Of a stretch of 64,000 nucleotides of DNA, positions 23,231 to 63,345 are shown piece by piece. Where the stretch lies: assembly GCF_016097555.1 (NCBI RefSeq), contig NC_054713.1:124001-188000 (forward strand), given 5' to 3'. Source of the stretch: Gigantopelta aegis. Its lineage: Eukaryota; Mollusca; Gastropoda; Neomphalida; Peltospiridae. Under the pieces are notes generated by a model, which worked only from the letters and a program-made list of their open reading frames with translations, was not told the origin of the DNA and did no database searches. The translations under genes were made by a program, and so were the position numbers. Numbering within the stretch: the stretch's first letter is position 1; each line of letters begins with the position of its first letter.

Positions 23231-24256
23231 ATGCTTGATAATGGGATACAAAACCGATGTAAGGAGTTGCTATGGCAACTCAAATGCAAACAGACCGAGT
23301 TGAATGGACTGGTTCTTCCTGGTGCTGCTCCTCCTTGTGACAATGTGTACAACACGACACACAATGGACTGAAACCAGTTTACTCGAGACACAAACTTGA
23401 CAGGTCACTGAGGCTTGTTGCCGGAGACGACGTGCCTACTGCCAGTCAGAGAGACAGAGAGGGCACCAGTCTACGGATTTACGATTCCGCTCCAAAGCCA
23501 AAATCAGTTACCATACAGTCAGACTTTGATGATGGCTATGAGAATGATGAAACTACAAAATGTAAACGTTTATTTGTGAAAAGAGACTCAAGTTTAGACC
23601 GGACTGAAACCAGTAATTTAAGTGACATACATTCTCATAGTTACACAACTGATGACAATCGGAGTAAAGACCGGTTTGCCTGTGATCAGAGTAAAGACCG
23701 GTCAGTTTCTTTTTCTCTCACGCCCAGAACTAGAAGTAGACGGAAACTCATTGACCGCAATGTCAAAGTCGGATCAGGATTGACTGACCTGGAAATCTCT
23801 GATAGTTATGATCCATCAAGTCGTCTTAATTTTAGCTACTCTCACGAGGATGAAGCGGATTTCTCTCTCAGATATTCGTACGACCGGGCGAGTACATTGG
23901 AACAACAAGCGGATCTCAAAGTTGTCGGGAGGAATCATACAACAGAAAAAACAGATCTTAAAGTGGTTGGGAGGAATTGTCAGGACGTAGAACAAACCAC
24001 GTTGGAACACCAGCAGATCAAGGCTCATCGGAACCTGGTCGGTACTGTGCGCGAGGCCGGCGACACAATTTCAGGAAAACAGAAAAAAGCCGCTGAGCCG
24101 CCACAGAGTGGCATGAACTCTGAGTCGCTGTCTGGCGTGGACGCAGACGTGTATTGTAGAAACCTGCGAGACGACGGAAACAACAAGAGACTCGCGTCAC
24201 TGCTCAAAGATTCCATTAAGTCGTACAACTTGTCGAGTTCATCACAGTTTAACTTG
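23231..24256 (+). CDS. MIIP: MIIP ortholog, coding exon 1
   Basis: First coding exon of a seven-exon gene (23231-24256, 25732-25910, 26914-26978, 35432-35579, 37129-37225, 38084-38188, 40860-41153; all junctions keep phase, about 637 aa). In human, MIIP (migration and invasion inhibitory protein, IIp45) binds IGFBP2 and restrains cell migration and mitotic progression; it has about 388 residues. The ATG at 23231 follows an acceptor at 23188, leaving a short 5' UTR; MLDNGIQNRCKELLWQLKCKQ is a plausible short N-terminal helix. The rest is low-complexity, charged and Ser-rich, with short internal duplications (SKDR twice, D-L-K-V-V-G-R-N twice), so the N-terminal half is poorly conserved and expanded. 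The exon ends ..FNL before GTATGTTAG in phase 0, where a minisatellite begins. Identity rests on exons 2, 5 and 6. Confidence 0.85.
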
Positions 24257-25010
24257 GTATGTTAGGGTCCAATAAGTCTTACAACTTGTCGAGTTCATCA
24301 CAGTTTAATTTGGTATGTTAGGGTCCAATAAGTCTTTCGATTTGTCGAGGAGAAGTTCATCACAGTTTAACTTGGTATGTTAGGGTTAGGGTCCAATAAG
24401 TCGTACAACTTGTCGAGTTCATCACAGTTTAACTTGGTATGTCAGGGTACAATAAGTCTTACGATTTGTCGAGGAGAAGTTCATCACAGTTTAACTTGGT
24501 ATGTTAGGGTTAGGGTCCAATAAGTCTTACAACTTGTCGAGTTCATCACAGTTTAATTTGGTATGTTAGGGTTAGGGTCCAATAAGTCTTACGATTTGTC
24601 GAGAAGTTCATCACAGTTTAACTTGGTATGTTAGGGTTAGGGTCCAATAAGTCTTACGATTTGTCGAGGAGAAGTTCATCAGTTTAACTTGGTATGTTAG
24701 GATTAGGGTCCAATAAGTCATACAACTTGTCAAGTTCATCACAGTTTAACTTGGTATGTTAGGGTTAGGGTCCAATAAGTCATACAACTTGTCGAGTTCA
24801 TCACAGTTTAACTTGGTATGTTAGGGTTAGGGTCCAATAAGTCATACAACTTGTCGAGTTCATCACAGTTTAACTTGGTATGTTAGGGTTAGGGTCCAAT
24901 AAGTCGTACAACTTGTCAAGTTCATCATGGTTTAACTTGGTATGTTAGGGTTAGGGTCCAATAAGTCATACAACTTGTCAAGTTCATCACGGTTTAACTA
25001 GGTACATAAG
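24218..25010 (+). repeat. intron-1 minisatellite duplicating the exon 1 donor site
   Basis: About 12 units of 57-66 bp. Each combines the last 39 exon bases (AAGTCGTACAACTTGTCGAG onward) with GTATGTTAGGGTTAGGGTCC from the intron, so each carries an intact-looking 5' splice site. The first copy is the real exon end. Reading past any donor meets TAG within three codons. Confidence 0.92.
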
Positions 25011-25437
25011 GGCTGTTAAGAATGGATCACACCGTGGGAGGGGGGTGTCACAGAATAAGATTTTATTTACATCAGGTTCCGATTTTTGGTACATTCGTGC
25101 GAAATTCTTCCAACTGTAATGTATCCAGTCTGTAAACAAAACCAAGACTCCATAATCAGGCATTACATTTGGGGAGAGGGGGATTTTGGCCAGAATCATA
25201 AATATGTTTTAATAAAGATATTTGTTGATTCCGCCTTGTAAACCTTTGATTCCAACCTCAAATCTGAGATTCGTGGATACACGAATTCCTGCGAAATTCC
25301 CAGTCTAGTATTAAATACTAATAATGGTTGCCGTGGCTACTTGTCTTTGCAGACATGTTGATATCGTTGGTTTGGCCTTGCCACAATGTTAAGATGTGGG
25401 ATGTGTCGGTGGTCATTAGAGCACTTGTCCATGCAAT

Positions 25438-25610
25438 AAACAAGTTTGTTTTGTTTAATGACACCACTAGAGCACATCGGCTATTGGATGTCAATGTCCA
25501 TGCAATAAGTCATAGAATTGATCATACTTGTTTCCCATCCCAACCAGTGGCCCACGACTGGCGCATATAACAATGTGGTCCTGTTTATAGCAATGTGCAT
25601 ATAAAAGGCC
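25438..25610. mobile_element. SINE fragment in MIIP intron 1
   Basis: AAGTTTGTTTTGTTTAATGA followed by CACCACTAGAGCACA and GCTATTGGATGTCAA is the tail region of the tRNA-derived SINE family. The remainder is diverged. Confidence 0.65.
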
Positions 25611-25731
25611 CCTTTCTGCATTTACAATAAATATTGATCAGGTGTCAAAATAACCATGTGCGTTTAATAACCACAGTTTCAGACTCTGCTGAAGTGGCAT
25701 TAACACATTCCTTTCCTTTGTTATTATGTAG

Positions 25732-25910
25732 ACTAACAACGCCAGGCCGTCGCTAAGCCGACAGGAGCAGAGGCTGCTGGGATATGATTGGATTGCAGCG
25801 CTGCTTGACAATGACTCTAATTTGATTGACGAAACCGAGTCGTTCTTTCAGGACATCAAAAACTTCCGCCGTGTCAACAAAGATCAGTGTTCCAACCAAT
25901 TCTACATGGA
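25732..25910 (+). CDS. MIIP: MIIP coding exon 2 (conserved GYDWIA..LLD block)
   Basis: Acceptor TTATTATGTAG at 25721-25731, donor GTGAGT at 25911; 179 nt, entering in phase 0. It encodes L-L-G-Y-D-W-I-A-A-L-L-D and, further on, F-R-R-V-N-K-D-Q-C, which matches the most conserved part of MIIP as I know it (GYDWIAGLLD, then an FR.xN..EC segment). No enzymatic function is implied; the segment is a protein-interaction region of a cytosolic/nuclear protein. Confidence 0.9.
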
Positions 25911-26255
25911 GTGAGTCACATGAATATCTTATTATTAGTCAATTCTACATGAGTGAGTCACATTATCTCTTATTGGTCAGTTCTACATGAGTGAGTCACA
26001 TGTATCTCTTATTGGTCAGTTCTACATGAGTGAGTCACATTATCTCTTATTGGTCAGTTCTACATGAGTGAGTCACATGTATCTCTTATTAGTCAGTTCT
26101 ACATGAGTGAGTCACATTATCTCTTATTAGTCAGTTCTACATGAGTGAGTCACATGTATCTCTTATTAGTCAGTTCTACATGAGTGAGTCACATGTATAT
26201 CTTATTAGTCAATTCTACATGGAGTGAGTTGCACGAATATCTTAGTAGTCAAACT
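25892..26255 (+). repeat. intron-2 minisatellite duplicating the exon 2 donor site
   Basis: Nine donor copies in total (25911, then near 25953, 25991, 26030, 26068, 26107, 26144, 26183 and 26224) in units of 37-39 bp that contain TTCTACATG(G)A followed by GTGAGTCACATG. The last unit keeps the exon-like GGAGTGAGT, while the middle units have lost one G. Confidence 0.93.
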
Positions 26256-26474
26256 TTGACAGATCTTTTACTTCAGTACCCTGTTTGGTTCTGCAATATG
26301 GTTTTGATAGATGTAGTGACTACATACATTGTACATGTAGTATATTTGTTTCTATATTTTCAGCCACTGGCCCAAACTGTCCTGATCGTGTGATTTAAGC
26401 CAATTTACTTGTTTACATGTACAAGTAGACCAGATTTCCACTTACATATTTCTACATTGTTCGTTTCAGTGTCG

Positions 26475-26835: not shown

Positions 26836-26913
26836 TTTTCTTATTTTGTGTAACATAAAGTTGATGTTGCAAATAAAATGTAATAAATGTGTGACTGTTT
26901 ATTTGTTTAACAG

Positions 26914-26978
26914 AGGACCACTGTCATTGGCTATTGATTTGAAGCCTTCACCAGTTGTCACGGCGATATCAGAGTCCA
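26914..26978 (+). CDS. MIIP: MIIP coding exon 3
   Basis: 65-nt exon between TTTGTTTAACAG and GTAAGTGG, entering with two carried bases and leaving one. It encodes E-G-P-L-S-L-A-I-D-L-K-P-S-P. It is too short for an independent call; it is supported by the phase agreement with exons 2 and 4 and by canonical splice sites. An 8-kb array begins about 5-20 nt after its donor. Confidence 0.75.
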
Positions 26979-27306
26979 GTAAGTGGTAAAAGTTATATAA
27001 TGGGGATGTTAGAGTGGTATGAATATAGAGTTATAGAACTATATAATGGGGATGTTAGAGTGGTATGAATATTTCACGTAGAGTTATAGAACTATATAAT
27101 GGGGATGTTAGAGTGGTATGAATATTTCACATAGAGTTATAGAACTATATAATGGGGATGTTAGAGTGGTATGAATATTTCACATAGAGTTATAGAACTA
27201 TATAATGGGGATGTTAGAGTGGTATGAATATTTCACATAGAGTTGTAGATCTATATAATGGGGATGTTAGAGTGATATGAATATTTCATATAGAGTTATA
27301 GATAGG

Positions 27307-27847
27307 GAATAACTGGTTACTGTCTTAAGATATCAGCTTTATCCTGCGAAGGTTAGAGTGGCGAATGCAGTGAGGCTCTGCCAAGCTGCATTCGCCATTC
27401 GCCCTGAGCAGGATGAAGTCAATATCCTAAGACAGTAACCAGTTATTTCTTTTATCCTGCAATCCTACAGCAATTTTCAGAAAATCATTATTTATTCCAG
27501 TTTTGTGTATGCAAATCAAGTATTGTCAATCTAGCAAGGCTTTTGCCATATGACATCATTATTTGTAAACGCTAGCTACATTCTGTCACATTAAAAAAGC
27601 GTTTCTAAACTCTTAATTCATAAATAAATATACAAGTTCTGCACTATTATCGCAAGCTAAAAGTTATTTTCTTTACTGTACTTCAACAAATGATTTAAAG
27701 AGTATGTTTATTGAAAATCTACTCTGAAATACTGGAGTCGAGTTAGGCTTATGTCACGTGATCTATATATTTTTTCAGTGACGGAAAATATAGAGATTTA
27801 TCTAGTCATCATATCGTGCCAATGTATACAGTGATTGCTGGATAAAA
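27307..27847. mobile_element. foldback plus MITE-like insertion in the array, copy 1
   Basis: Begins with a palindrome of about 140 bp whose ends are AATAACTGGTTACTGTCTTA and complement, with an inner GCGAATGCAG..CTGCATTCGC stem. This is followed by about 400 bp bounded by TTTATCCTGCAATC and GATTGCTGGATAAA. It interrupts the 51-bp repeat. Confidence 0.75.
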
Positions 27848-28429: not shown

Positions 28430-28936
28430 TAGGGAATAACTGGTTACTGTCTTAAGATATCAGCTTTATCCTGCGAAGGTTAGAGTGGCGAATGCAGTGA
28501 GGCTCTGCCAAGCTGCATTCGCCATTCACCCTGAGCAGGATGAAGCCAATATCCTAAGACAGTAACCAGTTATTTCTTTTATCCTGCAATCCTACATCAA
28601 TTTTCAGAAAATCATTATTTATTCCAGTTTTGTGTATGCAAATCAAGTATTGTCAACCTAGCAAGGCTTTTGCCATATGACATCATTATTTGTAAACGCT
28701 AGCTACGTACTGTCACATTAAAAAAGTTCTGCACTATTATCGCAAGGTAAAAGTTATTTTCTTTACTGTACTTCAACAAATGATTTAAAGAGTATGTTTA
28801 TTGAAAATCTACTCTGAAATACTGGAGTCGAGTTAGGCTTATGTCACGTGATCTATATATTTTTTCAGTGACGGAAAATATAGATATTTATCTAGTCATC
28901 ATATCGTGCTAATGTATACAGTGATTGCTGGATAAA
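28430..28936. mobile_element. foldback plus MITE-like insertion in the array, copy 2
   Basis: Nearly identical to 27307-27847 but lacking roughly 40 bp in its middle part. It is flanked by the same array-unit variants, so it was copied by duplication of about 1.1 kb rather than by a second transposition. Confidence 0.8.
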
Positions 28937-34900: not shown

Positions 34901-35324
34901 TTTCATGTATTTATAGAACTATATAATGGGGTGAGAGAGTGGTATGAATATTTCATGTATTTATAGAACTATATAATGGGGATGTGAGAGTGGTATGAAT
35001 ATTTCGTGTATTTATAGAACTATATAATGGGGATGTGAGAGTGGTATGAATATTTTGTGTAGTTATAGAACTATGTAATGGGGATGTGAGAGTGGTATGA
35101 ATATTTCATGTAGAGTTATAGAACTAAATAATATAGTATTCGTTACTGGGATTGGCATGTCGGAGAGATGAGTTTCAGTTTAACATGTTCAATCTTGAAT
35201 CCCATGTATTGCTTCGTGCTTCAATCTACTCGGCAAACATGATAGTGTCAGTAACCAAAATTTAATTTCAGCTGCAATTTTGGAGAGAAAAAATAATGTT
35301 CTGGTATATTTATTGTTATTTGAT

Positions 35325-35440
35325 TTATTTCAAAAGTAAAACTGCACATCGTGAATGACTAGCTGTTTACAATTTGTTTCAGAAATGAAACCATACTTAG
35401 TGAATGACTAGCTGTTAACGATTTTTTTCAGAAGTAAAAC
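35325..35440 (+). repeat. triplicated acceptor plus exon 4 start
   Basis: Three tandem units of about 50 bp: TTCAAAAGTAAAACTGCACA (35328), TTTCAGAAATGAAACCATAC (35378) and the functional TTTCAGAAGTAAAACCGTAC (35426). Each is followed by (T/C)GTGAATGAC(C/T). The middle unit keeps a plausible AG acceptor; the first has lost it. Confidence 0.85.
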
Positions 35441-35579
35441 CGTACATCGTGAATGACCGATTGTTTACGACTCCACTAAAGAGATGTCTCCTTGACGATC
35501 TAGGGGCCGCAAATGATGAGGATGAGAAGAAGAACGAACGGCAGAAGGAGCCGTGTTACGAGGAGCCGAGATTTGTCAG
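35432..35579 (+). CDS. MIIP: MIIP coding exon 4
   Basis: 148 nt between ATTTTTTTCAG and GTTTCTCG. Read in the phase left by exon 3 it gives V-K-P-Y-I-V-N-D-R-L-F-T-T-P-L, comparable to the YRVN.RLF..PL segment of vertebrate MIIP, then an acidic/basic stretch and E-E-P-R-F-V-R that joins directly to exon 5. Confidence 0.85.
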
Positions 35580-36315
35580 GTTTCTCGCGATTATCACGTT
35601 TAAATAACAGCTACATGTGTATAACAGGGCTAGATTGGGGGGGGTGTCGGGGTGGTGTGTCAGGTTTAAATAACAGAGCTAGATCAGTCGGGGGGGGGGG
35701 GGTTGTCGAGTTTCTCACGATTATTACGTTTACAGAGTCAAGGGGTTGTTTGCTGACTCTAAACCAGTTTAAATAACATCTACATGAACAAGGCTAGGTC
35801 GGGGGGTGGTGGTGTGGGGTGTCAGGTTTAAATAACATCTACATGTGTATAACAGGGCTAAGTCGGGGGGGGGGGGGGGGGGGTCAGGTTTAAATAACAG
35901 CTACATGTGTATAACAGGGCTAGATTGGGGGATGTCGGGGTGGTTTGTCAGGTTTAAATAACAGCTACATGTGTATAATAGGGCTAGATTGGGGGGTGTC
36001 GGGGTGGTGTATTAGGTTTAAATAACATCTACATGTGCATAACAGGGCTAGGTTGGGGGGGGGGGGTCAGGTTTAAATAACAGCTACATGTGTATAACAG
36101 GGCTAGATTGGGGGATGTCGGGGTGGTTTGTCAGGTTTAAATAACAGCTACATGTGTATAATAGGGCTAGATTGGGGGGTGTCGGGGTGGTGTATTAGGT
36201 TTAAATAACATCTACATGTGCATAACAGGGCTAGGTTGGGGGGGGGGGGGGTCAGGTTTAAATAACAGCTACATGTGTATAACAGGGCTAGATCAGGGGA
36301 TGGGTGGGGGGGTCA
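35568..36315 (+). repeat. intron-4 minisatellite duplicating the exon 4 donor, G-rich
   Basis: About ten degenerate units of 60-90 bp containing (T)GTCAGGTTTAAATAACA, CTACATGTGTATAACAGGGC and a G-run of up to about 17 bases (for example 35867-35883). The GTCAG/GTTT junction equals the exon 4 donor. One unit also keeps the TTTCTC(A/G)CGATTATNACG that follows the real donor. Confidence 0.88.
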
Positions 36316-36419
36316 GAAAACGTCAAACATTGCATAAACAAAACAATATCATTCATTACATAATATTATTTTACTGTATTAAATAAAAATGTTTCGGTTT
36401 TAAAATTTGCTAGTGTGTG

Positions 36420-37128: not shown

Positions 37129-37225
37129 AGTGAGTATTCCACGTTCTACTCTGGAGACTCCGACACGCATCCAGCCTCATCGACGCAGCAGTTTTGACTC
37201 GACAGACTCATGTGCACTCTCTCAG
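37129..37225 (+). CDS. MIIP: MIIP coding exon 5 (conserved VSIPRSTL..PHRR.SFD block)
   Basis: 97 nt between TCTTCACACAG and GTGAGCC. It encodes R-V-S-I-P-R-S-T-L-E-T-P-T-R-I-Q-P-H-R-R, then SSFDSTDSCALSQ. The VSIPRSTL and PHRR.SFD.SD motifs are the strongest match to MIIP. It ends in phase 0. Confidence 0.93.
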
Positions 37226-38083: not shown

Positions 38084-38188
38084 CACTGTCTGCTCGGGTG
38101 GGAGAACTCTCGACCCGCCATGATGCCGGCTGCCACGACCGTTGGCCTGAGTGATGCGACCGGTGAACTCAAGTCACGACTCACCACG
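38084..38188 (+). CDS. MIIP: MIIP coding exon 6
   Basis: 105 nt, phase 0 at both ends. It starts H-C-L-L-G-W-E-N, matching the HCL.GW segment that follows the PHRR block in MIIP. The donor is CACCACG/GTACAC, weak by consensus, and is the seed of the next array. Confidence 0.9.
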
Positions 38189-40075
38189 GTACACTGACTC
38201 AATGTTTTATAGACTTACCACTGTACACTGACTCAATGTTTTATAGATATGTCACGGTACACTGACTCAATGTTTTATAGACTTACTACGGTACACTGTC
38301 TCAATGTTTTATACTCACCACGGTACACTGACTCAATGTATTATAGACTTGTCACGGTATACTGACTCAATGTTTTATAGACTTACCATGGTACACTGAC
38401 TCAATGTTTTATAGACTTACCATGGTACACTGACTCAATGTTTTATAGACTTGTCACGGTACACCGACTCGATGTTTTATAGACTTGCCATGGTACACTG
38501 ACTCAATGTTTATAGACTTACCACGGTACAGTGACTCAATGTATTATAGACTTACCACGGTACACTGACTCAATGTTTTATAGACTTACCACGGTACACT
38601 GACTCAATGTTTATAGACTTACCACGGTACAGTGACTCAATGTTTTATAGACTTACCACAGTACTGACTCGATGTTTTATAGACTTACCACGGTACACTG
38701 ACTCGATGTTTTATAGACTTACCACAGTACACTGACTCGATGTTTTATAGACCTGTCACGGTACACTGACTTGATGTTTTATAGACTTACCATGGTACAC
38801 TGACTCAATGTTTATAGACTTACCACGGTACAGTGACTCAATGTATTATAGACTTATCACAGTACACTGAATCAATGTTTTATAGACTTACCACGGTACA
38901 CTGACTCGATGTTTTATAGACTTACCACGGTAAGCTGACTCGATGTTTTATAGACTTGTCACGGTACACTGACTCAATGTTTTATAGACTTGTCACTATA
39001 CATGGACTCAATGTTTTATAGACTCGTCACAGTACAACGACTCAATGTTTTTTAGACTTGTCACGGTACACTGACTCGATGTTTTATAGACTTACCATGG
39101 TACACTGACTCAATGTTTATAGACTTACCACGGTACAGTGACTCAATGTATTATAGACTTATCACAGTACACTGAATCAATGTTTTATAGACTTACCACG
39201 GTACACTGACTCGATGTTTTATAGACTTACCACGGTAAGCTGACTCGATGTTTTATAGACTTGTCACTATACATGGACTCAATGTTTTATAGACTCGTCA
39301 CGGTACAATGACTCAATGTTTTATAGACTTACCATGGTACACTGACTCAATGTTTATAGACTTACCACAGTACAGCGACTCAATGTTTTATAGACTTACC
39401 ACGGTACACTGACTCAATGTTTTAGACTTGTCACGGTACACTGACTCAATGTTTTATAGACTCTTTACAGTACAATGACTCAATATTTTATAGACTTGTC
39501 ACGGTACACTGACTCGATGTTTTATAGACTTACCATGGTACACTGACTCAATGTTTATAGACTTACCATGGTACAGTGACTCAATGTATTATAGACTTAT
39601 CACAGTACACTGAATCAATGTTTTATAGACTTACGACGGTACACTGACTCGATGTTTTATAGACTTGTCACGGTAAGCTGACTCGATGTTTTATAGACTT
39701 GTCATGGTACACTGACTCAATGTTTTATAGACTTGTCACTATACATGGACTCAATGTTTTATAGACTTGTCACGGTACACTGAATCTATGTTTTATAGAC
39801 TTACCATGGTACACTGACTCAATGTTTTATAGACTCGTTACGGTACAATGACTCAATGTTTTATAGACTTACCATGGTACAATGACTCAATGTTTATAGA
39901 CTTACCACGGTACAGCGACTCAATGTTTTATAGACTTACCACGGTACACTGACTCAATGTTTTATAGACTTGCCACGGTACACTGACTCAATGTTTTATA
40001 GACTTACCACGGTACACTGAATCAATGTTTTATAGACTTACACTGATTCAATGTTTTATAGATTTTCAGGATGTA
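38172..40075 (+). repeat. intron-6 minisatellite duplicating the exon 6 donor (34-bp unit)
   Basis: More than 50 units of ACT(T)ACCACGGTACACTGAC plus TCAATGTTTTATAG. The ACCACG/GTACAC core is the exon 6 end and donor. Variants ACCATGGTAC, GTCACGGTAC and others recur in blocks (the 38790-38990 pattern is seen again at 39090-39290), indicating multi-unit copying. Confidence 0.95.
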
Positions 40076-40859: not shown

Positions 40860-41153
40860 ACTCTAGCTGAAGCAGAGAGGTTGGCATCGACCTACTCGTG
40901 GCCGGTGACCCAGCCAACCACTCACAGGCCCGACCAGTTTCCCACGTGGAGGAAACAGTATCACGACACTGTCATGAACATGACCGCCCCGGCCTTGAAG
41001 AATGTAACGTGCACGTCCCACAGCCGACCCGACCGAGAGACGGTGAGGAGAAACACGGACGAGTTGCTCAACTCAACGTACTCACTCATGTATGAGATGG
41101 AGCGACTGAAGAAAGAACGAGAACTCAGTGGACAGACGAAAACAGTGAAATAA
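40860..41153 (+). CDS. MIIP: MIIP terminal coding exon 7
   Basis: Acceptor TTTCTCTACAG, phase 0, 97 codons plus TAA at 41151-41153. It encodes T-L-A-E-A-E-R-L and a C-terminal stretch with RNTDELLNSTYSLMYEMERL, a probable helical segment, and ends K-T-V-K. Conservation with vertebrate MIIP is weaker here, so this exon is assigned by splice phase, position and the matching stop. The last codons seed the 3' UTR array. Confidence 0.82.
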   Translation, partial: TLAEAERLASTYSWPVTQPTTHRPDQFPTWRKQYHDTVMNMTAPALKNVTCTSHSRPDRETVRRNTDELLNSTYSLMYEMERLKKERELSGQTKTVK

Positions 41154-42000
41154 AGTTTGAAATAGCAACGAAAACAGTGAAATAGTGTTTGAAATATCAA
41201 CGAAAATAGGGAAATGGTGTTTGAAATATCAACAAAAACTGTGAAATAGTGTGTAATATTAACGAAGACAGTGACATAGTTTTTGAAATATAAACACTGG
41301 TTCAGTAAAAACAGTGAAATAGTGTTTGAAATATCAACGAAAACAGTGAAATAGTGTGTAATATTAACGAAAACAGTGAAATAGTGTTTGAAATATAAAC
41401 ACTGGTTCAGTAATATCAACACTGGTTCAGAAATATCAACACTGGTTTTCAGTAATGTCATTAAAAACAGTGTTAGTTTGAAATATCAACACTGGTTTTC
41501 AGTAATGTCATTAAAAACAGTGTTAGTTTGAAATATCAATCTTGGTGTTTAGTAATTTAACAACAAAAACTGAAATATTGACACTGGTTTTCAGTAAATT
41601 CTATAAAAACTGAAACTTTGAAATATCAATAAAACCAGTGAAATGGTGTTAGAAATATCAATACAAGTTTTTAGTAATAACAAAAATAGTTTCAGAAATA
41701 TCAACACTTTTAGTAATATCAATAATAATGGTGAAATATGTGTAGAGTTTGAAATAGTTTTATAATATCAAACAAAGTGTTTGAAATATCAGCATAGGTT
41801 TTTATAATATCAACAAAAACTGAGAAATAGTGTGAAATATCAAGATTGGTTTTATATCAACAAAGACAGAGAAAGTGTTTTAAATATCAACACAGGATTT
41901 TATATCAACAAGCACTGAGAAATAGTGTTTGAAATATCAAATTAGGTAATATAAACTGAAATATATGTAGTGTTTGAAATATCAACACAGGTGTTGTGTA
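41130..42000 (+). repeat. 3' UTR minisatellite duplicating the MIIP stop region
   Basis: Units of ACGAAAACAGTGAAATA(A/G) plus TGTTTGAAATATCA, initially 30-36 bp and increasingly degenerate downstream. The first unit is the end of the coding sequence, including the stop. Confidence 0.85.
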
Positions 42001-49361: not shown

Positions 49362-52300
49362 TCACTCTTCACCCAGTTCAAACGGATCCGAATCTTCGCT
49401 CATTACCACCGACTGATGTTTGTTTGTTGTTGATTTTGGACTCAACTCTATATCTAGGTCAAGGTCAAGACTGTCACTGTCGGGACACTGCTGATCCTTG
49501 CTGGTTTCATTCAGCTCCAAGATTTGTTCATCATTGCTGTCCTGACTTTGGGAACTACGCAGTTTCCTGGAGCTAACAGATAATACCTTCTTACGTTCAG
49601 ACTTCTTAATATTCTTTTTATCATCATTCAACTCTAAAATCTCTTCATCATCACTGCTGTTCTGGCTCTGGGAACTGCGCAGTTTCCTTGAGGTTTTCTG
49701 TTCTGTCTTCTTGTTTATATCATTCAACTCTAAAATTTCTTCATTACTGCTGTCCTGGTTCTGTGAGCTGCGCAGTTTCCTTGAGGTTTTCTTACGTTCA
49801 GTCTTCTTGTTTATATCATTCAACTCTAAAATCTCTTCTTCATCACTGCTGTCCTGGCTCTGTGAGTTGCACAGTTTCCTTGAGGTTTTCTTACATTCTG
49901 TCTTCTTGTTTATATCATTCAACTCTACAATCTCTTCATCACTGCTGCCCTGGCTCTGTGAGCTGCGCAGTTTCCTTGAGGTTTTCTTACATTCTGTCTT
50001 CTTGTTTATATCATTCAACTCTACAATCTCTTCATCACTGCTGCCCTGGCTCTGTGAGCTGCGCAGTTTCCGTGAGGTTTTCTTACGTTCTGTCTTCTTG
50101 TTTATATCATTCAACTCTACAATCTCTTCATCACTGCTGCCCTGGCTCTGTGAGCTGCGCAGTTTCCGTGAGGTTTTCTTACGTTCTGTCTTCTTGTTTA
50201 TATCATTCAACTCTAAAATCTCTTCATCACTGCTGTCCTGGCTCTGTGAGCTGCGCAGTTTCCGTGAGGTTTTCTTACGTTCTGTCTTCTTGTTTATATC
50301 ATTCAACTCTAAAATCTCTTCATCACTGCTGTCCTGGCTCTGTGAGCTGCGCAGTTTCCGTGAGGTTTTCTTACGTTCTGTCTTCTTGTTTGTATCATTC
50401 AACTCTAAAATCTCTTCACCATCACTTTCCTGGCTCTGTGAACTGCGCAGTTTTCTTGAGGTAACTGACGTTTTCTTAGGTTCTGTCTTCTCCATGTGTT
50501 TATTATCATTCAATTCCAAAGTCTCCTCTTCATCGTCGCCATCATCATCATCGGTGCTGCACTGGTTCTGAGTAATGCGCTGTTTCCTGGTATTCATTAC
50601 CTTACATTCCGTCTTCTTTCTGTTGCCATCAGAAATCTTTTCACACGAGTCTGTTTGAGAGTTTGGATATTTACGTTCTATCTTTTTCTTCTTCCTTGTT
50701 TTACTATCAGAATTTTTGTCAGATGAGCTAGGGATTTCTATAACATCATCATCAATTTGAGAATTTAGACATTTCCTCGTTTTACTCTGTGGCGAATCTT
50801 TTACCATACTGTGATCTTGTGAATTGTTTAACTCAGTAATTTTGCTACTTCTGGACCAGTCAGGTTTCTTAATACTTAGTTTCTTTGACTTCTCCAATTT
50901 GGAATCTTCTGTTTCACTTCGACTGCAATCATTTGTAAGATTCTGTCTTTCCTTAATACTTAGTTTCTTTGACTTCTCTGGTTTGGAATCTTCTATTTCA
51001 CTTAGACTGCAATCATTTGTAAGATTCTGTCTTTCCTTAATACTTAGTTTCTTTGACTTCTCCATTTTGGAATCTTCTTTTTCACTTCGACTACAATCAT
51101 TTGTAAGATTCTGTTTTTCCTTAATGCTTAGTTTCTTTGACTTCTCCATTTTGGAATCTTCTTTTTCACTTCGACTGCAATCATTTGTAAGATTCTGTTT
51201 TTCCTTAATACTTAGTTTCTTTGACTTCTCCATTTTGGAATCTTCTGCTCCACTTTGACTCTGATCATTTGTTACATTCCATTTTTCCTTTTTATCTCGT
51301 TTGTCTTCACTACTACCCGTCACAGAGCTGGCACATTTTTCACCATCTGATGTCTTGATTTTTTCCTGTTTCGAATCCTTACTCTTCTTCAGCTTCAGTT
51401 TGTTTTTTTCCTTCACATTGGACACCAAATCATCTTTGTCCTTCTCGTTCTGTTCATCTTTCTTGAGTTTGTCTACCTTTTTGCCCTCTACATTGCTGTC
51501 TTCCTTTGAACAGCTTTCTTCAGTCCTGTTGAGCTTGGTCGTCTTTTTGCCTTCTATAATTCTCTTTTTTTGTGAACAGCTTTGTCCATCTTTCTTGACT
51601 TCATCTGCCTTTTTGTCCTCTGTATTTGTATATTTTTTTGAACAGCTTTGTTTGGTTTTGTTGAGCTTGTTGATCTTTTTATCCTCCATGTTTGAACTGA
51701 TGTAATTTTGACACGATTTCCCCTCTGGTGTCTCTCTGCTCATCTCTTTCCTGTCTTCTTGATCTTTGTCCTTTGAATCGTCCCTCATAACTATTTCATC
51801 TTGTGTCTTTACCACAACAGGTGCAACAAATATTGATACTTTCTTTTTACTACTGCCAAACGTTGGAACAGTTTTTTGCGTTTTAACCGCATCATTTCTT
51901 TGAGCCTTGCTGTCAGCAGGTTTTGAGCTTTTCGTCTTCTTTGCTAATTTTGGTTTTGAATTTCCTTGTTCCACATTTTCTTTCTCTTGCTTCTCATACA
52001 CTTTCTTTTTTGCTGTATTCCATTCAGTTGATTTGGAGGCATCACTTGCAGTTTCACTGTTCTGTATGCTCTTTGGATCTCCTCTGTTTTCCTTGGATTT
52101 CTTTTCTTTCTTTTTCCCTTTCATACCAGACCCGCCTTTCATCTCAGATCTGTTCTCAAAGCTCTCTTCATTCTTTCTACTGCTCTTCTTCGGCTTTTTT
52201 GTTTTAGGCTCGGCTTCTTCGCCAGTTTCTCGACTTATCTCGCTTGTCGTAGAATCAACATTTCCCTCTACATCTTTCTTTGCAGCCTTCGTCTCTGCAG

Positions 52301-52564
52301 TTTCTGCTTCCCCACTTTTAGCTTTATCGGCCGGTTTGCTCTTAGTTTTCTTCTTTCCTTTGTGTGGCACGTCTTTTCCCGTCCAATTCGCGAGAGTGGG
52401 CTGTCCACATGAACCCATCTCACTGTTGACAGTGTTGTTGTTGTTGTGCAAGCCATCACCCATCTCCATGGTGAAGATGTCGGGGTCGAGCTGCATACAG
52501 AGATTGCCAGAACTGTCGGTTGTACTCCGAACCATCTTCTTCTCAACCTCATCTTCTAATCTGT
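49362..52564 (-). CDS. terminal 3.2-kb exon, lysine-rich protein with tandem SUMO-interaction-like repeats
   Basis: A minus-strand acceptor (..TTTTATATTTTAG) precedes 52564; the frame runs 1067 codons to the stop at 49362, in phase 1 with the exon at 59749-59838. Codons open upstream of 52564 are intron read-through. The protein is very rich in Lys, Ser, Glu and Asp, with no globular domain recognised. It has three repeat regions: four loose K-K-x2-K-L-x-K..S-C-S-K units (about 51430-51690), five 27-residue E-D-S-K-x-E-K-S-K-K-L-S-I-K units (about 50870-51260), and ten 28-30-residue S-R-K-L-R-S-S-Q-S-Q..S-S-D-E-E-I-L-E-L-N-D units (about 49500-50470). A D-D-D-V-I-E-I-P-S-S-S (about 50740) is a classic SUMO-interaction motif, and I-[LV]-E-L after Ser/acidic residues in each unit resembles one. 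A nuclear scaffold role is inferred; the gene is not identified. Confidence 0.85.
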
Positions 52565-53090: not shown

Positions 53091-53093
53091 AAT

Positions 53094-54317: not shown

Positions 54318-54344
54318 TTATTGTTATATGGCATGGGAAGGAAG

Positions 54345-54667: not shown

Positions 54668-57600
54668 CACAATATCAAGGACTTAGATTAAGAGAGGGTG
54701 GGACTTGTTTGTATTTAAGAGAGGGTGGAACTTCTTTGTATTTAACACTTTCCATTGCTAACATGCTACTTGTTTGTATTTACTACTTTCCATTGCTAAC
54801 ATGCTGCCTGTTTGTATGTAACACTTTCCACTGCTAACATTCTACCTGTTTGTATGTAACACTTTCAACTGCTAATATGCTGCCTGTTTGTATGTAACAC
54901 TTTCCACTGCTAACATGCTGCCTGTTTGTATGTAACACTTTCCACTGCTAACATGCTACCTGTTTGTATGTAACACTTTCCACTGCTAACATGCTGCCTG
55001 TTTGTATTTAACACTTTCCACTGCTAACATGCTACCTGTTTGTATTTAACACTTTCCACTGCTAACATGCTACCTGTTTGTATGTAACACTTTCCACTGC
55101 TAACATGCTACCCGTTTGTATGTAACACTTTCCACTGCTAACATGCTACCCGTTTGTATGTAACACTTTCCACTGCTAACATGCTACCCGTTTGTATTTA
55201 ACACTTTCCACTGCTAACATGCTACCCGTGGGTATGTAACACTTTCCACTGCTAACATTCTACCTCTTTGTATGTAACTCTTTCCACTGCTAACATTCTA
55301 CCTGTTTGTATGTAACACCTTCCACTGCTAACGTGCTACCTGTTTGTATTCAATACTTTCCACTGCTAACATTCTACCTGTTTGTATGTAACACTTTCCA
55401 CTGCTAACATGCTACCTGTGTGTATGTAACTCTTTCCACTGCTAACATGCTACCTGTTTGTATGTAACACCTTCCACTGCTAACATGCTACCTGTTTGTA
55501 TGTAACACTTTCAACTGCTAACATGCTACCTGTTTGTATTTAATACTTTCAACTGCTAACATGCTACCTGTTTGTATGTAACACTTTCAACTGCTAACAT
55601 TCTACCTGTTTGTATTTAACACTTTCAACTGCTAACATGCTACCTGTTTCTATGTAACACTTCTCACTGCTAACATGCTACCTGTTTGTATGTAACACTT
55701 TCCACTGCTAATATGCTACCTGTTTGTATGTAACACTTTCCACTGCTAACATGCTACCTGTTTGTATGTAACACCTTCCACTGCTAACATGCTACCTGTT
55801 TGTATTTAACACTTTCAACTGCTAACATGCTACCTGTTTGTATTTAATACTTTCAACTGCTAACATGCTACCTGTTTGTATGTAACACTTTCAACTGCTA
55901 ACATTCTACCCGTTTGTATTTAACACTTTCAACTGCTAACATGCTACCTGTTTGTATGTAACACCTTCCACTGCTAACGTGCTACCTGTTTGTATTTAAT
56001 ACTTTCAACTGCTAACATGTTACCTGTTTGTATGTAACACCTTCCACTGCTAACATGCTACCTGTTTGTATGTAACACTTTCAACTGCTAACATTCTACC
56101 TGTTTGTATTTAACACTTTCAACTGCTAACATGCTACCTGTTTGTATGTAACACCTTCCACTGCTAACGTGCTACCTGTTTGTATTTAATACTTTCAACT
56201 GCTAACATGCTACCTGTTTGTATGTAACACTTTCCACTGCTAAAATGCTACCTGTTTATATTTAATACTTTCCACTGCTAACATGCTACCTGTTTATATG
56301 TATCACTTCTCATTGCTAACATGCTACCTGTTTGTATGTAACACTTTTTACTGCTAACATGCTACCTGTTTGTATGTAACACTTACCACTCCTAAAATGC
56401 TACCTGTTTGTATGTAACACTTCTCACTGCTAACATGCTACCTGTTTGTATTTAACACTTTCCACTGCTAACGTGCTACCTGTTTGTATGTAACACTATC
56501 CACTGCTAAAATGCTACCTGTCTGTATGTATGTAACTCTTTCCATTGCTAACATGCTACCTGTTTGTATGTAACACTTGTCACTGCTAAAATGCTACCTG
56601 TTTGTATGTAACACTTCTCACTGATAAAATGCTACCTTTCTATATGTAACACTTTTCACTGCTAACATGCTACCTGTTTGTATGTAACACTTTTCACTGC
56701 TAAAATACTACCTCTTTGTATGTAACACTTCTCACTGATAAAATGCTACCTTTCTGTATGTAACACTTTTCACTGCTAAAATGCTAACTGTTTGTATGTA
56801 ACACTTCTCACTGCTAAAATGCTACCTGTTTGTATGTAACACTTCTCACTGCTAAAATGCTACCTGTTTGTATGTAACACTTCTCACTGCTAACATGCTA
56901 CCTGTTTGTATGTAACACTTTCCACTGCTAACATGCTACCCGTTTGTATTTAACACTTTCCACTGCTAACATGCTACCTGTTTGTATTTAACACTTTCAA
57001 CTGCTAACATGCTACCTGTTTGTATGTAACACTTCTCACTGCTAACATGCTATCTGTTTGTATGTAACACTTTCAACTGCTAACATGCTACCTGTTTGTA
57101 TGTAACACTTTCCATTGCTAACATGCTACCTGTTTGTATGTAACACTTTCCACTGCTAACATGCTACCTGTTTGTATGTAACACTTTCCACTGCTAACAT
57201 TCTACCTGTTTGTATGTAACACTTTCCACTGCTAACATGCTACCTGTTTGTATGTAACACTTTCCACTGCTAACATGCTACCTGTTTGTATGTAACACTT
57301 TCCACTGCTAACATGCTACCTGTTTGTATGTAACACTTTCCACTGCTAACATGCTACCTGTTTGTATTTAATACTTTCAACTGCTAACATGCTACCTGTT
57401 TGTATGTAACACTTTCAACTGCTAACATTCTACCTGTTTGTATTTAACACTTTCAACTGCTAACATGCTACCTGTTTGTATGTAACACTTCTCACTGCTA
57501 ACATGCTACCTGTTTGTATGTAACACCTTCCACTGCTAACATGCTACCTGTTTGTATGTAACACCTTCCACTGCTAACATGCTACCTGTTTGTATGTAAC

Positions 57601-58814
57601 ACTTTCCACTGCTAACATGCTACCTGTTTGTATGTAACACCTTCCACTGCTAACATGCTACCTGTTTGTATGTAACACTTTCAACTGCTAACATTCTACC
57701 TGTTTGTATTTAACACTTTCAACTGCTAACATGCTACCTGTTTGTATGTAACACCTTCCACTGCTAATGTGCTACCTGTTTGTATTTAATACTTTCAACT
57801 GCTAACATGCTACCTGTTTGTATGTAACACCTTCCACTGCTAACATGCTACCTGTTTGTATTAACACTTTCAACTGCTAACATTCTACCTGTTTGTATTT
57901 AACACTTTCAACTGCTAACATGCTACCTTCCACTGCTAACGTGCTACCTGTTTGTATTTAATACTTTCAACTGCTAACATGCTACCTGTTTGTATGTAAC
58001 ACTTTCCACTGCTAAAATGCTACCTGTTTATATTTAATACTTTCCACTGCTAACATGCTGCCTGTTTATATGTATCACTTCTCATTGCTAACATGCTACC
58101 TGTTTGTATGTAACACTTTTTACTGCTAACATGCTACCTGTTTGTATGTAACACTTTTCACTGCTAAAATGCTACCTGTTTGTATTTAACACTTTCCACT
58201 GCTAACATGCTACCCGTTTGTATTTAACACTTTCCACTGCTAACATGCTACCTGTTTGTATGTAACACTTCTCACTGCTAACATGCTATCTGTTTGTATG
58301 TAACACTTTCCACTGCTAACATGCTACCTGTTTGTATATAACACTTTCCACTGCTAACATGCTACCTGTTTGTATGTAACACTTTCCACTGCTAACATGC
58401 TACCTGTTTGTATTTAACACTTTCAACTGCTAACATGCTACCTGTTTGTATGTAACACTTTCCACTGCTAACATGCTACCTGTTTGTATGTAACAATGCT
58501 ACCTGTTTGTATGTAACACTTCTCACTGCTAACATGCTACCTGTTTGTATGTAACACTTTCCATTGCTAACATGCTACCTGTTTGTATGTAACACTTTCC
58601 ATTGCTAACATGCTACCTGTTTGTATGTAACACTTTCCACTGCTAACATGCTACCTGTTTGTATGTAACACTTTCCACTGCTAACATGCTACCTGTTTGT
58701 ATGTAACAATGCTACCTGTTTGTATGTAACACTTTCCATTGCTAACATGCTACCTGTTTGTATGTAACACTTTCCATTGCTAACATGCTACCTGTTTGTA
58801 TGTAACACTTTCCA

Positions 58815-59452
58815 TTCTACAATGGGTATATTTTACCACTCATCGATTACTGCTGTGTGATTTGGGGAAACTGTAATCAGGATGGATTAGAACGTTTACT
58901 AAAACTGCAAAAGACAGCTGCAAGGATGATATTAGATGTAGATCCTATTACTCCATCTGCCCCACTATTTAAACAGTTAAAATGGATGACAATGGAAACA
59001 CGAATCCACTATCACAAATGTTTACAAATTTATAAATGTCTATACAATGAAGCCCCAAACTATCTTTCAAACTTATTAATATATGTTGGAGAAAACAATC
59101 CCTACAACCTTCGAAATGTAGAGGATAGAAATCTATTAATTCCAAAACCTAAAATGTCTTTATTTAAACATGCTTTCAGTTACTCTGGACCAGTACTTTG
59201 GAATAAATTGCCTAAAGCTATCCGATCATCGCCAAATACTGCTGTTTTTAAATATAGACTCAAGAAATATTTTCTAAAATAATATCATTTGTACATATGT
59301 TTATTGCCATATATGTATTTTCTATTTGTTCATAAATGTATGCATTGTAATTCTGTATTGTTTGTACCTGAGGGCCTCAGGGAAGATTAGCTTTTGCTAA
59401 CTGTGTTACCCTCACTAAATAAGGAATTTATTATTATTATTATTATTATTGA
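58815..59452 (+). mobile_element. 5'-truncated CR1/L2-type LINE 3' end
   Basis: Inserted in the minisatellite. It ends in a (TTA)n/(ATT)n simple repeat at 59430-59450, the usual 3' tail of CR1/L2-group elements, with no clear target duplication. Confidence 0.8.
58857..59282 (+). CDS. C-terminal end of a CR1/L2-type reverse transcriptase (truncated)
   Basis: About 141 codons: W-G-N-C-x4-L-x-R-L-L-K-L-Q-K-T-A-A-R-M-I-L-D, S-A-P-L-F-K-Q-L-K-W, A-P-N-Y-L, N-L-R, F-S-Y-S-G-P-V-L-W-N-K-L-P and F-K-Y-R-L-K-K-Y-F. These are the characteristic last 140 residues of CR1/L2/Rex1-group RT proteins, downstream of the catalytic palm. Endonuclease and palm are missing through 5' truncation. The frame is intact to its TAA. 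The stated start is internal to the element's real ORF. Confidence 0.85.
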   Translation: MIWGNCNQDGLERLLKLQKTAARMILDVDPITPSAPLFKQLKWMTMETRIHYHKCLQIYKCLYNEAPNYLSNLLIYVGENNPYNLRNVEDRNLLIPKPKMSLFKHAFSYSGPVLWNKLPKAIRSSPNTAVFKYRLKKYFLK

Positions 59453-59748
59453 TAACATGCTACCTGTTTGTATGTAACACTTTCCACTGCTAACATGCTA
59501 CCTGTTTGTATGTAACAATGCTACCTGTTTGTATGTAACACTTCTCACTGCTAACATGCTACCTGTTTGTATGTAACACTTTCCACTGCTAACATGCTAC
59601 CCGTTTGTATTTAACTTTCCACTGCTAACATGCTACCTGTTTGTATTTAACACTTTCCACTGCTAACATGCTACCTGTTTGTATGCAACTTTCCATTGCT
59701 AACATGCTACCTGTTTGTATGTAACACTTTCCACTGCTAACATACTAC

Positions 59749-59838
59749 CTGTTTGGATTCTTCGTTTCCTAGCCTCTCGTCTCTTTGCCAGCCACTCTCT
59801 CGCTGCAGAATTCGTACACTTAGGTTCATATTCTGGAT
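59749..59838 (-). CDS. internal exon of the minus-strand lysine-rich gene
   Basis: 90 nt between a minus-strand ..TTTCTTTAATAG acceptor and a GTAGTATG donor. Joined to both neighbours in phase 1 it gives D-P-E-Y-E-P-K-C-T-N-S-A-A-R-E-W-L-A-K-R, then RREARKRRIQT, a basic helical segment, possibly nuclear-targeting. Its last seven bases seed the 5-kb array downstream. Confidence 0.8.
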
Positions 59839-60085
59839 CTATTAAAGAAATGAAAACACAACCCTAGGACATACAAGACAAACTCTGATTTAATCTGACT
59901 AGTGCATCATACATCTCTTACTTAAAAAGGAAAATCCTGTTGTTATCTAACTATGCAGTGAACTGTACACGCCTTTATCAAGGAAATTCTTCTGAATACT
60001 CAACTATGCAGTGCATTGTACATCACTCACCTAATAAGGACAATTCTAGTTTAAACTGATCAGTGTATTGCATACACTTGCTTAA

Positions 60086-60210
60086 AATCTTGAATTTTAA
60101 TATCCTGTACATAAACTGTAGAAATCTTGAATTATAATATCCTGTACATAAACTGTAGAAATCTTGAATTTTAATATCCTGTACATAAACTGTAGAAATC
60201 TTAAATTTTA
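60086..60210. repeat. 36-bp minisatellite, split by the TA element
   Basis: Three to four units of AATCTTGAATTTTAATATCC plus TGTACATAAACTGTAG; one more unit continues at 61419-61452 after the inserted element. Confidence 0.85.
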
Positions 60211-61418
60211 AAGGAAGGGACAATTAAGGCATTTGGCCTGGTATGCATATTCAACGATATATAATGCACATTATTGCTTAATATCAACCAGTATAATCGT
60301 ATAGTTAATTAATAAAACGGTTAAATGTGACGGCTATTATATATAACGGGCGCAGCCATTTTGTACCATTTCAGTGAGTACGCCCTCTGGCGAGCTGGTG
60401 GTTACGTAATACTTAACGCGTAACATCAGGAATGAGCCTTAGAACTAGAGAAACACAATCTACCTGGTTTTTGCGGGATGATAAATAATCATACATTGCA
60501 ATGTTCTGTAATAATACATATCCCAGTAAGCCAGCAATAAGTATATCCAGCACTATATATATTATTTTTGAATACAAAATAAAATACCATTGTCAAAGTG
60601 GCTACACAACAAGTCGAAATAATTAACAATGTTTTGTCCATGCATTAACCTATGTACTGAAATGATACACAGAGTGTTTTCTTAGTTAATTGGTCTATGC
60701 TGTTAGTTGCTTCTACCTATGATTCCTGATTGGCAGGTGTGTATTTGATTGGTAACCGGACGAGCCAATTAATTGACGCTGTCTAGACACAAAAATACAT
60801 ACCAGTATTGTGGAATATTACCTGTCGCTGCTAAAATGGTAATGGACATGGTTTATTACTGTAAATAGTTCTGTAAAATTATTGATTAAGTAGACTTTTC
60901 CATCTAAAACCACAGAACTGACCAATTACATAGTCCCAAAGAAAAGAAAATTATCATATGGGTATCGTGGGTTGTCGTTTTTGCTTCAACGTAGCATATC
61001 AATAGGCCTAATAATGTACATTTTTCCTTTGGATTACTTAACAGAGAAAAATACTATAACCCCATTTTGTTCCGTTAATGCAACTTGAAATATATTTAGT
61101 TAAATAGTTTATTATATTATTACGTCATTTATGCTGTTTTACAAGTCAAGTTGATCAAAAAAGGCCTTGTCGAAAATTACTGCTTTTGTTTACACTGTAC
61201 ATACAGGAGATGGTCAGGAGCTGACGTCACTTCGCCCCAAGCTATCCCACCGGACGTCACAAAACAAAATGGCTGCCCCCAGTTAGCAGGAATAATCATG
61301 TTTTTTTATTAACTCTAAAATTACGCGTTTTTCATTTGCTAAAGTGTCAGTATGTGTTGGTGGTCCGGGTATGCATCTTTCCAACACATAAGGCTCTTGT
61401 TTGAGTTGACCCTACCTT
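60211..61418. mobile_element. 1.2-kb non-autonomous DNA element with TA target duplication
   Basis: The left end AAGGAAGGGACAATTAAGGC and the complement of the right end AAGGTAGGGTCAACTCAAAC are related, with GATGCATACC / GGTATGCATATT further in and complementary GCAGCCATTTTGT / ACAAAATGGCTGC blocks. TA lies on both sides and the surrounding 36-bp repeat shows the exact empty site. No transposase frame. Confidence 0.75.
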
Positions 61419-61452
61419 TAATATCCTGTACATAAACTGTAGAAATCTTGCA

Positions 61453-61875
61453 GTTCAGGTTTAACACTTTCTGCATTTAGTAAATTCTGGTTTTATCTGA
61501 CACAGGGTACAATATTTCACGGGAACCATTGTTCTGTTCGCGTGTTGGTTACACAGCTATAAAATCACGAGAACCGCCAATCGGTTATATGGTGAACAAT
61601 TGCATTCTAATACAAAAGTACCATATTTTAGTAATGAAAGTGAAAATCAGTTTGTTTTTAAATACATTTGAACCATCAATGTAGCACAGAACCATAGTTC
61701 AAGTGTTTTGGGATTAGGTAGGCCTAACTCATCGGTTACGAGAACTATATTCGCATAACCGAACAATCGGTTACCTAAGTAAAACTGAATTGACTGTGGT
61801 TAGCTAAGATTTTGAAATAATGTTCCCTGCTGACATGTATACTATACATAGTGGTGCACTGCTTACTAAAACGTC
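61453..61875. other. intronic, no feature recognised
   Basis: Unique-looking AT-rich intron sequence of the minus-strand gene. GGTTACGAGAAC/CGGTTA-like words recur (61500-61775) but form no clear element. Confidence 0.4.
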
Positions 61876-61879
61876 TGAA

Positions 61880-63345
61880 GTTTACCTTCCTCACTGTAGT
61901 GTGTGTCTGTAGTTTACCTTGCTCTGCGTCACCGTGTGTCTATACAGTGTAGTGTGTGTGTCTGTAGTTACCTTGCTCCGCGTCGCTGTGTGTGTCTGTA
62001 CAATGTCTGTAGTTTACCTTGCTCCGCGTCGCTGTGTGTGTCTGTAGTTTACCTTTCCCCCGCGTCGCTGTATCTGGCAGGATGTCCATCACATCCTCCA
62101 TGAAAGACAACATCGATTGTACAGTGTATGGTCTGTAGTGTGTGTCTGTACAGTGTCTGTAGTTTACCTTGCTCCGCGTCGCTGTGTGTGTCTGGCAGGA
62201 TGTCCATCACGTCCTCCATGGAAGACAACACCAATTGTACAGTGTATGATCTGTAGTGTGTCTGTACAGCGTCTGTAGTTTACCTTGCTCTGCATCAGTG
62301 TGTGTCTGTAGTTTACCTTGCTCTGTGTCACTGTGTGTCTCTGGCAGGATGTCCAACACGTCCTCAATGGAAGACAACACCGACTGTACAGTGTATGGTC
62401 TGTAGTGTGTGTGTCTGTAAAGTGTCTGTAGTTTACCTTGCTCCGCGTCGCTGTGTGTGTCTGTAGTTTACCTTGCTCTGCGTCGCTGTGTGTGTCTGTA
62501 GTTTACCTTGATCTGCGTCACTGTGTGTGTCTGTACAGTGTCTGTAGTTTACCTAGCTCCATGTCGCTGTGTGTCTGTACAGTGTCTGTAGTTTACCTAG
62601 CTCCGCATCGCTGTGTGTGTCTGTAGTTTACCTTGCTCCACGTCACTGTGTGTGTCTGTACAGTGTCTGTAGTTTACCTTGCTCCGCGTCGCTGTGTGTG
62701 TCTGTACAGTGTCTGTAGTTTACCTTGCTCCGCGTCGCTGTGTGTCTGGCAGGATGTCCATCACGTCCTCCATGGAAGACAACACCGACTGTACAGTGTA
62801 TGGTATGTAGTGTGTGTCTGTACAGTGTCTGTAGTTTACCTTGCTCCGCGTCACTGTGTGTGTCTGTACAGTGTCTGTAGTTTACCTCGCTCCGCGTCGC
62901 TGTGTGTGTCTGTACAGTGTCTGTAGTTTACCTTGCTCCGCGTCGCTCTGTGTGTCTGGCAGGATGTCCATCACATCATCCATGGAAGACAACACCAACT
63001 GTACAATGTATGGTCTGTAGTCTGTGTCTGTACAGTGTCTGTAGTTTACCTTGCTCCGCGTCGCTGTGTGTGTCTGTAGTTTACCTTGCTCCGCATCGCT
63101 GTGTGTGTCTGTACAGTGTCTGTAGTTTACCTTGCTCCACGTCACTGTGTGTCTGTAGTGTCTGTAGTTTACCTTGCTCCGCGTCGCTGTGTGTGTCTGT
63201 ACAGTGTCTGTAGTTTACCTTGCTCCGCGTCGCTGTCTGGCAGGATGTCCATCATGTCCTCTATGGAAGACAACACTGACTGTACAGTGTATGGTCTGTA
63301 GTGTGTGTCTGTACAGTGTCTGTAGTTTACCTTGCTCCGCGTCGC
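61880..63345 (-). repeat. intronic minisatellite duplicating exon end and donor
   Basis: Minus-strand units of 30-45 bp containing GACGCGGAGCAAGGTAAACT plus ACAGACACTGTACAGACACA. Longer units (62075-62180, 62200-62290, 62340-62440, 62740-62820, 62950-63030, 63240-63330) also include exon-derived GTTGTCTTCCATGGAGGACG and TGATGGACATCCTGCCAGAC. All units can be derived from the last 70 or so bases of the exon 63331-63507 plus its donor. Confidence 0.93.

Follow-up and report, generated by a model that had tools for sequence, protein, structure and literature searches.

Introns of the deep-sea vent snail Gigantopelta aegis were found to open with minisatellites whose repeat unit joins the end of the preceding exon to the 5' splice site (donor). 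The stretch analysed, C15:124001-188000 of the 1.149-Gb assembly (64,000 nucleotides, referred to below as the window and numbered from its first base), carries seven coding exons of a plus-strand MIIP gene and three exons of a minus-strand gene. Such arrays begin at six of the eight donors in the window, namely those of MIIP introns 1, 2, 4, and 6 and donors A and B of the minus-strand gene. The structure is real and striking, and its copy numbers look extreme. We regard it as probable that these arrays are mirage minisatellites, that is, products of an unaimed tandem duplication that has been filtered by selection, which tolerates copies located downstream of the first functional donor or stop codon.

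Arrays at the donors of the window

The six donor-spanning arrays are given below, with unit sizes in base pairs (bp) and a slash marking the exon/intron junction.

24212..25004, plus strand: donor-1 array, 62-bp unit made of the last 45 exon nucleotides and GTATGTTAGGG..; 12 copies, GT in 12/12
25900..26251, plus strand: donor-2 array, 39-bp unit TTCTACATG(G)A/GTGAGTCAC..; 8 copies by pattern past the real donor
35573..36316, plus strand: donor-4 array, unit of about 64 bp with ..TCAG/GTTTAAATAAC; a weak case, with a 30-nucleotide junction copy near 35703
38178..40062, plus strand: donor-6 array, 34-bp unit CTCACCACG/GTACACTG..; 51 copies, GT in 48
61953..63393, minus strand: donor-A array, units of 35/46/~112 bp; 23 copies, all with GT
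54688..59759, minus strand: donor-B array, 38-bp unit CAAACAG/GTAGCATG..; 116 copies, 107 with GT; interrupted at 58816-59453

By a strict ungapped test, five of the eight donors (1, 2, 6, A, and B) were spanned, and six once donor 4 was included. The best gapped alignments placed 45, 14, 11, 59, and 11 exon nucleotides (nt), respectively, inside the units of these five donors. Apart from the several unit sizes of donor A, the units measured 34 to 64 bp (donors 1, 2, 4, 6, and B), and seven of the eight pattern copies at donor 2 were shorter by one base. Intron 4 is the weakest of the six: its donor gave no match in the ungapped junction-copy tests, and what was detected downstream were the 30-base junction copy (26 bases identical) and seven shorter TCAG/GTTTAAATAAC copies. 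The arrays of MIIP introns 3 and 5 lie within the intron, starting about 15 and 55 nt past the donor, respectively, and do not include the exon. Each spanned-donor array supplies from about 7 to 116 decoy donors, and in-frame read-through past the eight window donors reaches a stop codon after 2, 1, 3, 9, 24, 2, 38, and 16 codons. These counts agree with the initial annotation of this DNA, which had described exon-end units at six of eight donors, arrays close to donors 3 and 5, about 8 to more than 100 decoys, and a stop met soon after read-through (here 1 to 38 codons at all eight donors).

The origin of one unit was traced by a DNA search of the genome with the intron-1 unit, the one unit so searched, by a method that skips simple repeats and very common words. 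All seven matches fell at C15:148212-149012, and since the unit was found at its own locus only, it arose in place. This already contradicts, for intron 1, the proposal that dispersed satellites or mobile elements were inserted beside donors; the units, moreover, contain the host gene's own exon end. Although the genome is repeat-rich, and intron 3 and intron B of the minus-strand gene hold other repeated pieces, insertion of this kind is extremely improbable. We also consider it highly improbable that the arrays were invented or mis-sized by long-read assembly. According to the portion of the report that was available (PMC7895826), the published assembly was generated with wtdbg2 from corrected PacBio reads and polished, and exact copy numbers may be wrong; however, the copies at donors 1, 2, 6, and B differ from one another (87-93% matches by Tandem Repeats Finder [TRF]), so that the arrays are not a simple re-reading of one copy, and the same structure occurs at unrelated loci with unrelated sequences.

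Three further features of these introns were observed. The donor-1 unit (24257-25004) includes GTTAGGGTTAGGG, two telomere-like hexamers that are probably due to chance. In MIIP intron 3, a spacer of about 500-540 bp is present twice (27303-27841 and 28430-28931) between arrays of the 53-bp unit, so that the spacer seems to have been copied along with the array; by eye, the spacer contains an inverted-repeat-like stretch. The donor-B array is split, with copies on both sides, by a piece at about 58830-59440 that resembles, by eye, the C-terminal end of a non-long-terminal-repeat (non-LTR) retrotransposon protein.

The exon models on which the junctions rest were built as follows. When joined, the seven coding exons of the plus-strand gene encode a protein of 637 amino acids that is identical to NCBI protein LOC121390296 of G. 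aegis and matches Pfam MIIP at 1.5e-40; the protein search for this gene used residues 300-637. Because the translation equals LOC121390296, the MIIP splice sites are fixed as in the database entry, and this entry, which is a database record and not RNA, has the first donor used at all six MIIP introns. For the minus-strand gene, no Pfam family was found for 573 of its residues, and a protein search with residues 1-480 of the exon-C translation returned no homologue among 7987 scored candidates. The minus-strand reading 49365-52562 encodes a lysine- and serine-rich protein.

23231..24256, plus strand: MIIP coding exon 1, ends ..TTTAACTTG/GTATGT; equals the LOC121390296 protein
25732..25910, plus strand: MIIP exon 2, ends ACATGGA/GTGAGT
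26914..26978, plus strand: MIIP exon 3, donor unspanned; array of the 53-bp unit begins about 15 nt inside the intron
35432..35579, plus strand: MIIP exon 4, ends TTTGTCAG/GTTTCT
37129..37225, plus strand: MIIP exon 5, donor unspanned; 20-bp array from 37280
38084..38188, plus strand: MIIP exon 6, one acceptor copy 349 nt upstream
40860..41153, plus strand: MIIP exon 7, coding part, stop codon TAA at 41151-41153
63331..63507, minus strand: exon A of the minus-strand gene, ends GACGCGGAGCAAG/GTAAAC
59749..59838, minus strand: exon B of the minus-strand gene, ends CCAAACAG/GTAG
49362..52564, minus strand: last exon (C) of the minus-strand gene, holds coding arrays with units of 96, 84, and 66 bp

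Decoy donors, acceptors, stop codons, and coding repeats

The state of the decoys was examined in ten arrays. The GT of the decoy donor was intact in 281 of 302 copies, compared with 264.9 expected from the neighbouring dinucleotides, and the median decoy donor score equalled that of the real donor in eight of the ten arrays when generic donor weights were used. In five of the ten, the array consensus differed from the exon copy at one or two of the last nine exon bases (a comparison of consensus sequences only), which bears on a feature of amphioxus mirages, namely that the edge copy of an array escapes homogenization. Purging of decoys was looked for and, with the GT kept at this rate, was not found. 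The decoys are thus generally not removed by selection, which suggests that they are little used or harmless. It is, by comparison, very unlikely that the arrays have a splicing role, in which they would buffer or tune donor choice or expression by way of aberrant, decayed transcripts. The slightly greater intactness of the decoy GTs and the stop codon reached soon past each of the eight donors would be compatible with this; however, the GT excess is small, copies within an array are not independent, the array at myosin exon 3 kept the GT in 3 of 8 copies and lost it in 5, 53 of the 57 donors sampled elsewhere in the genome are without array copies, and early stops are expected of any non-coding read-through.

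The reading as mirages would account for the arrays in the following way. Tandem duplication of stretches of about 20-110 bp would be frequent in this genome and would strike genes at any position. Where it crossed a donor, an intact exon and donor would remain upstream, with the mRNA unchanged while the first donor is used. Surviving donor duplications could then grow within the intron by unequal exchange or slippage until tens of decoys had formed. The same sieve would let through copies beyond a stop codon and, inside exons, copies that keep the reading frame, while acceptor copies, which place a decoy ahead of the true site, would be accepted less often.

Arrays of the same kind were found at other gene features of the window:

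35323..35457, plus strand: acceptor-4 array, 49-bp unit across TTTCAG/AAGTAAAACC
41136..41539, plus strand: array spanning the MIIP stop codon, 32-bp unit AAAACAGTGAAATAA..
1083..1215, plus strand: 65-bp repeat in two copies, across 1107-1109, the stop codon of the left-edge open frame 459-1109

Upstream junction copies were present at two of nine window acceptors (MIIP acceptors 4 and 6), and two of three stop codons lie in repeats, those of MIIP and of the left-edge frame 459-1109; the stop of the minus-strand gene (49362-49364) is in none of the TRF-listed arrays. The repeats at 1083-1215 and 41136-41539 begin in the last codons and form a stop-codon counterpart of a mirage. Coding arrays were located in exon C at 49612-50462, 50868-51290, and 51451-51686, and the units of all four coding arrays in the window (those listed for exon C and 45 bp in the left frame) are divisible by three, compared with 3 of the 12 listed noncoding units. 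A pattern confined to donors was considered and rejected, with acceptors and stop codons spanned as well. The placement at donors noted in the initial annotation therefore stands for six of eight donors and not as an exclusive property, whereas its suggestion that selection spares the first donor fits what was seen, including the stop-spanning arrays and the coding units in multiples of three.

Possible donor preference in the window and elsewhere in the genome

The region is rich in arrays, since they cover 62% of window positions 24001-64000 (compared with 5.5% of 1-24000) and 23-53% of four flanking 10-kilobase stretches, while at 80 exon-centred loci elsewhere the mean coverage was 10% and the median 2%. 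At points 100-400 nt past the window donors, 78 of 96 lay in arrays, as did 29 of 108 points before the acceptors. By plain array coverage the window donors do not stand out. Coverage mostly reflects array growth, and a first-unit control, which counts intron points with a copy downstream and none upstream, is fairer.

For comparison with the rest of the genome, exons were chosen by protein homology, not by repeats, from the myosin head, TCP-1, and kinesin families on chromosomal contigs only. The loci comprised the best 30 of 80 myosin, and the best 30 of 64 TCP-1 matches and, for kinesin, the 20 best among 124 matches that were chromosomal, with 9 of the 30 myosin and 8 of the 30 TCP-1 loci left out as lying on small contigs. 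Exon limits were placed manually, guided by the translations, the splice consensus, and donor weights; donors L035, L038, L057, L065, L076, and L078 and acceptors L006, L008, L035, L043, L054, and L076 were left out because the boundary was unclear, and several of the sampled exons share one gene and are thus not independent. Junction copies spanned 4 of 57 donors (L007, L010, L043, and L069) and 2 of 57 acceptors (L009 and L053), with no significant difference between them (Fisher P = 0.68); at L043, L069, and L009 there was just one such copy. Of 684 intron points downstream of donors, 102 lay in arrays, as did 96 of the 684 upstream of acceptors (14-15%). First-unit and last-unit points numbered 39 and 42 of 1710, respectively, and the acceptors were at background (P = 0.41). 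Within exons, copies were found at 3 of 241 interior points (myosin and TCP-1 loci).

One myosin gene (C1:27.05 Mb) was examined further after arrays had been noticed at two of its loci, and of the five exons seen, four had a spanned donor. Its units carry the coding ends ..NLFIRYMENQIY, ..ANPIME, ..YHYLVQ, and ..LHMGNIKYN, and, depending on the method, 33-43 copies were counted at one donor and 41-42 at another; an acceptor-spanning repeat was present at one exon (locus L086). Because the exon sequences differ, the shared feature is position and not sequence, as the initial annotation had observed for the window. Certain genes rich in arrays seem to hold a disproportionate share of the spanned donors.

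Several observations weigh against unaimed duplication as the sole explanation. In the window, five of eight donors were spanned compared with 63 of 1290 first-unit intron points (binomial P about 1e-5, a post hoc value, since the region was picked for this very pattern), while the acceptors were only weakly above the local rate (2/8 versus 74/1290, P = 0.07), and the direct comparison of donors with acceptors (6/8 versus 2/9) gave a Fisher P of 0.057. In the sample, donors were spanned at about three times the first-unit rate, with a borderline P of 0.04 against all intron points and of 0.12 against points after donors only; when window and sample were pooled, the counts were 10 of 65 donors and 4 of 66 acceptors (P = 0.10). 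Genome-wide, pairs of the 9-mer CAGGTAAGT spaced 24-54 bases apart numbered 626 per 9769 words, compared with 401 per 9124 for the reversed word, which is a modest excess. This last test is weak, as CAGGTAAGT (9769) is scarcely commoner than its reversed control (9124), and among the first 100 or so places listed most came from one array at C1:29.52 Mb. A neutral sieve must put the difference between donors and acceptors down to acceptor-side loss alone.

These observations bear on the alternative that duplication is targeted to donors, with template switching set off at exon ends, in germline-transcribed genes, by R-loops, by a paused polymerase, or by nascent RNA to which U1 is bound. The strong donor excess in the window, the four of five spanned donors in one myosin gene, the borderline excess in the sample, and an apparent concentration in some genes that would fit germline transcription all speak for it. 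On the other side, the share of sample donors spanned (4/57) is below the share of intron points in arrays (102/684), acceptors, stop codons, and coding sequence bear the same kind of array, and the window was chosen for the pattern and the myosin gene for its arrays. Donor targeting was thus considered as a genome-wide rule and is not supported by the 57-donor sample; we judge it unlikely as an explanation of the arrays. The recurrent duplication process at exon 3' ends that the initial annotation had proposed accordingly finds no support genome-wide, and these 57 donors revealed no strong targeting but did leave the borderline excess over first-unit points. A strong general donor process is not supported by the data, which leave room for a modest one. 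It is likewise doubtful that, in some genes of this lineage (perhaps genes active in the germline), donors are true duplication hot spots, at which a transcription-engaged or U1-bound 5' splice site promotes template switching. If this were true, mirages would be a trace of co-transcriptional mutagenesis at the ends of exons and would supply a natural series of up to 116 near-identical donors of which only the first is used.

Relation to known repeat systems

The initial annotation knew of no described system of this form; this was wrong, since the mirages of amphioxus share the structure. In the parts of the amphioxus reports consulted (PMC3087553; PMC3902484), mirages are tandem repeats across exon/intron boundaries, at donors or acceptors, of Adh3, globins, PGBD5, and troponin C, with units of 10-72 bp in Adh3 and 150-160 bp in the globins (BflGb6 and BflGb9); regular splicing is stated to be undisturbed (partly by reverse transcription PCR), and length instability is reported, with somatic length variation in the case of Adh. 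As far as these excerpts go, the snail arrays resemble amphioxus mirages in that (i) the unit lies across the exon/intron boundary and is present in many copies with splice signals in several genes; (ii) the units are of minisatellite size (34 to about 112 bp in the window and about 20-85 bp in the myosin genes, compared with 10-160 bp published); and (iii) both 5' and 3' boundaries are duplicated, the latter at MIIP acceptors 4 and 6, L009, L053, and myosin L086. They differ in that the host is a mollusc and not a cephalochordate, in that up to 116 copies are present compared with the 3 and 6 units quoted for BflGb6 in the consulted text, and in that stop codons, too, are spanned in the snail. 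According to the same excerpts, splicing and length polymorphism were examined in amphioxus, whereas the snail case is known from one assembly alone.

Other known systems are less close. Intron gain by tandem duplication (Hellsten 2011; potato RdRp; PMC4974935, as seen in excerpt) likewise copies splice signals by tandem duplication, but it creates a new intron, whereas the snail arrays enlarge an existing one and leave the protein unchanged. Ordinary intronic minisatellites or variable number tandem repeats are similar in unit size, degeneracy, and tandem growth; unlike them, the snail unit includes the coding exon end and the donor. No mollusc mirage was found in the literature searched: in the consulted portion, a paper on cone-snail gene structure (PMC3862624) covers microsatellites and describes no mirage, and an earthworm paper (PMC12783039) has a minisatellite in a first intron, with spanning of the exon border not stated in the part seen. 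Among vent snails, Chrysomallon squamiferum is separated from G. aegis by about 66 My (PMC7736800).

What is new here is the mollusc host and the very many decoys per donor, and the finding is not evidence of a new molecular system. Read as mirages, the arrays extend this class of repeat from amphioxus to a mollusc. We infer that the first donor is probably the one used; if it is used despite tens of equally strong copies, these genes would offer a natural test of how one of many identical 5' splice sites is selected by the spliceosome. If arrays of this kind are common, genomes rich in minisatellites would produce tandem duplications across exon ends as a side effect, and these would be one source of long introns.

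Two observations concern the left part of the window and its neighbourhood. In the left neighbouring gene, three donors read by eye (L002 at about 7567 and 8579; L001 at about 8995) are followed, after about 50-80 nt, by arrays that leave the exon out; these donors, looked at beside array edges only, are not part of the counts. On the minus strand at about 10800-17350, a long stretch resembles, by eye, a non-LTR retrotransposon.

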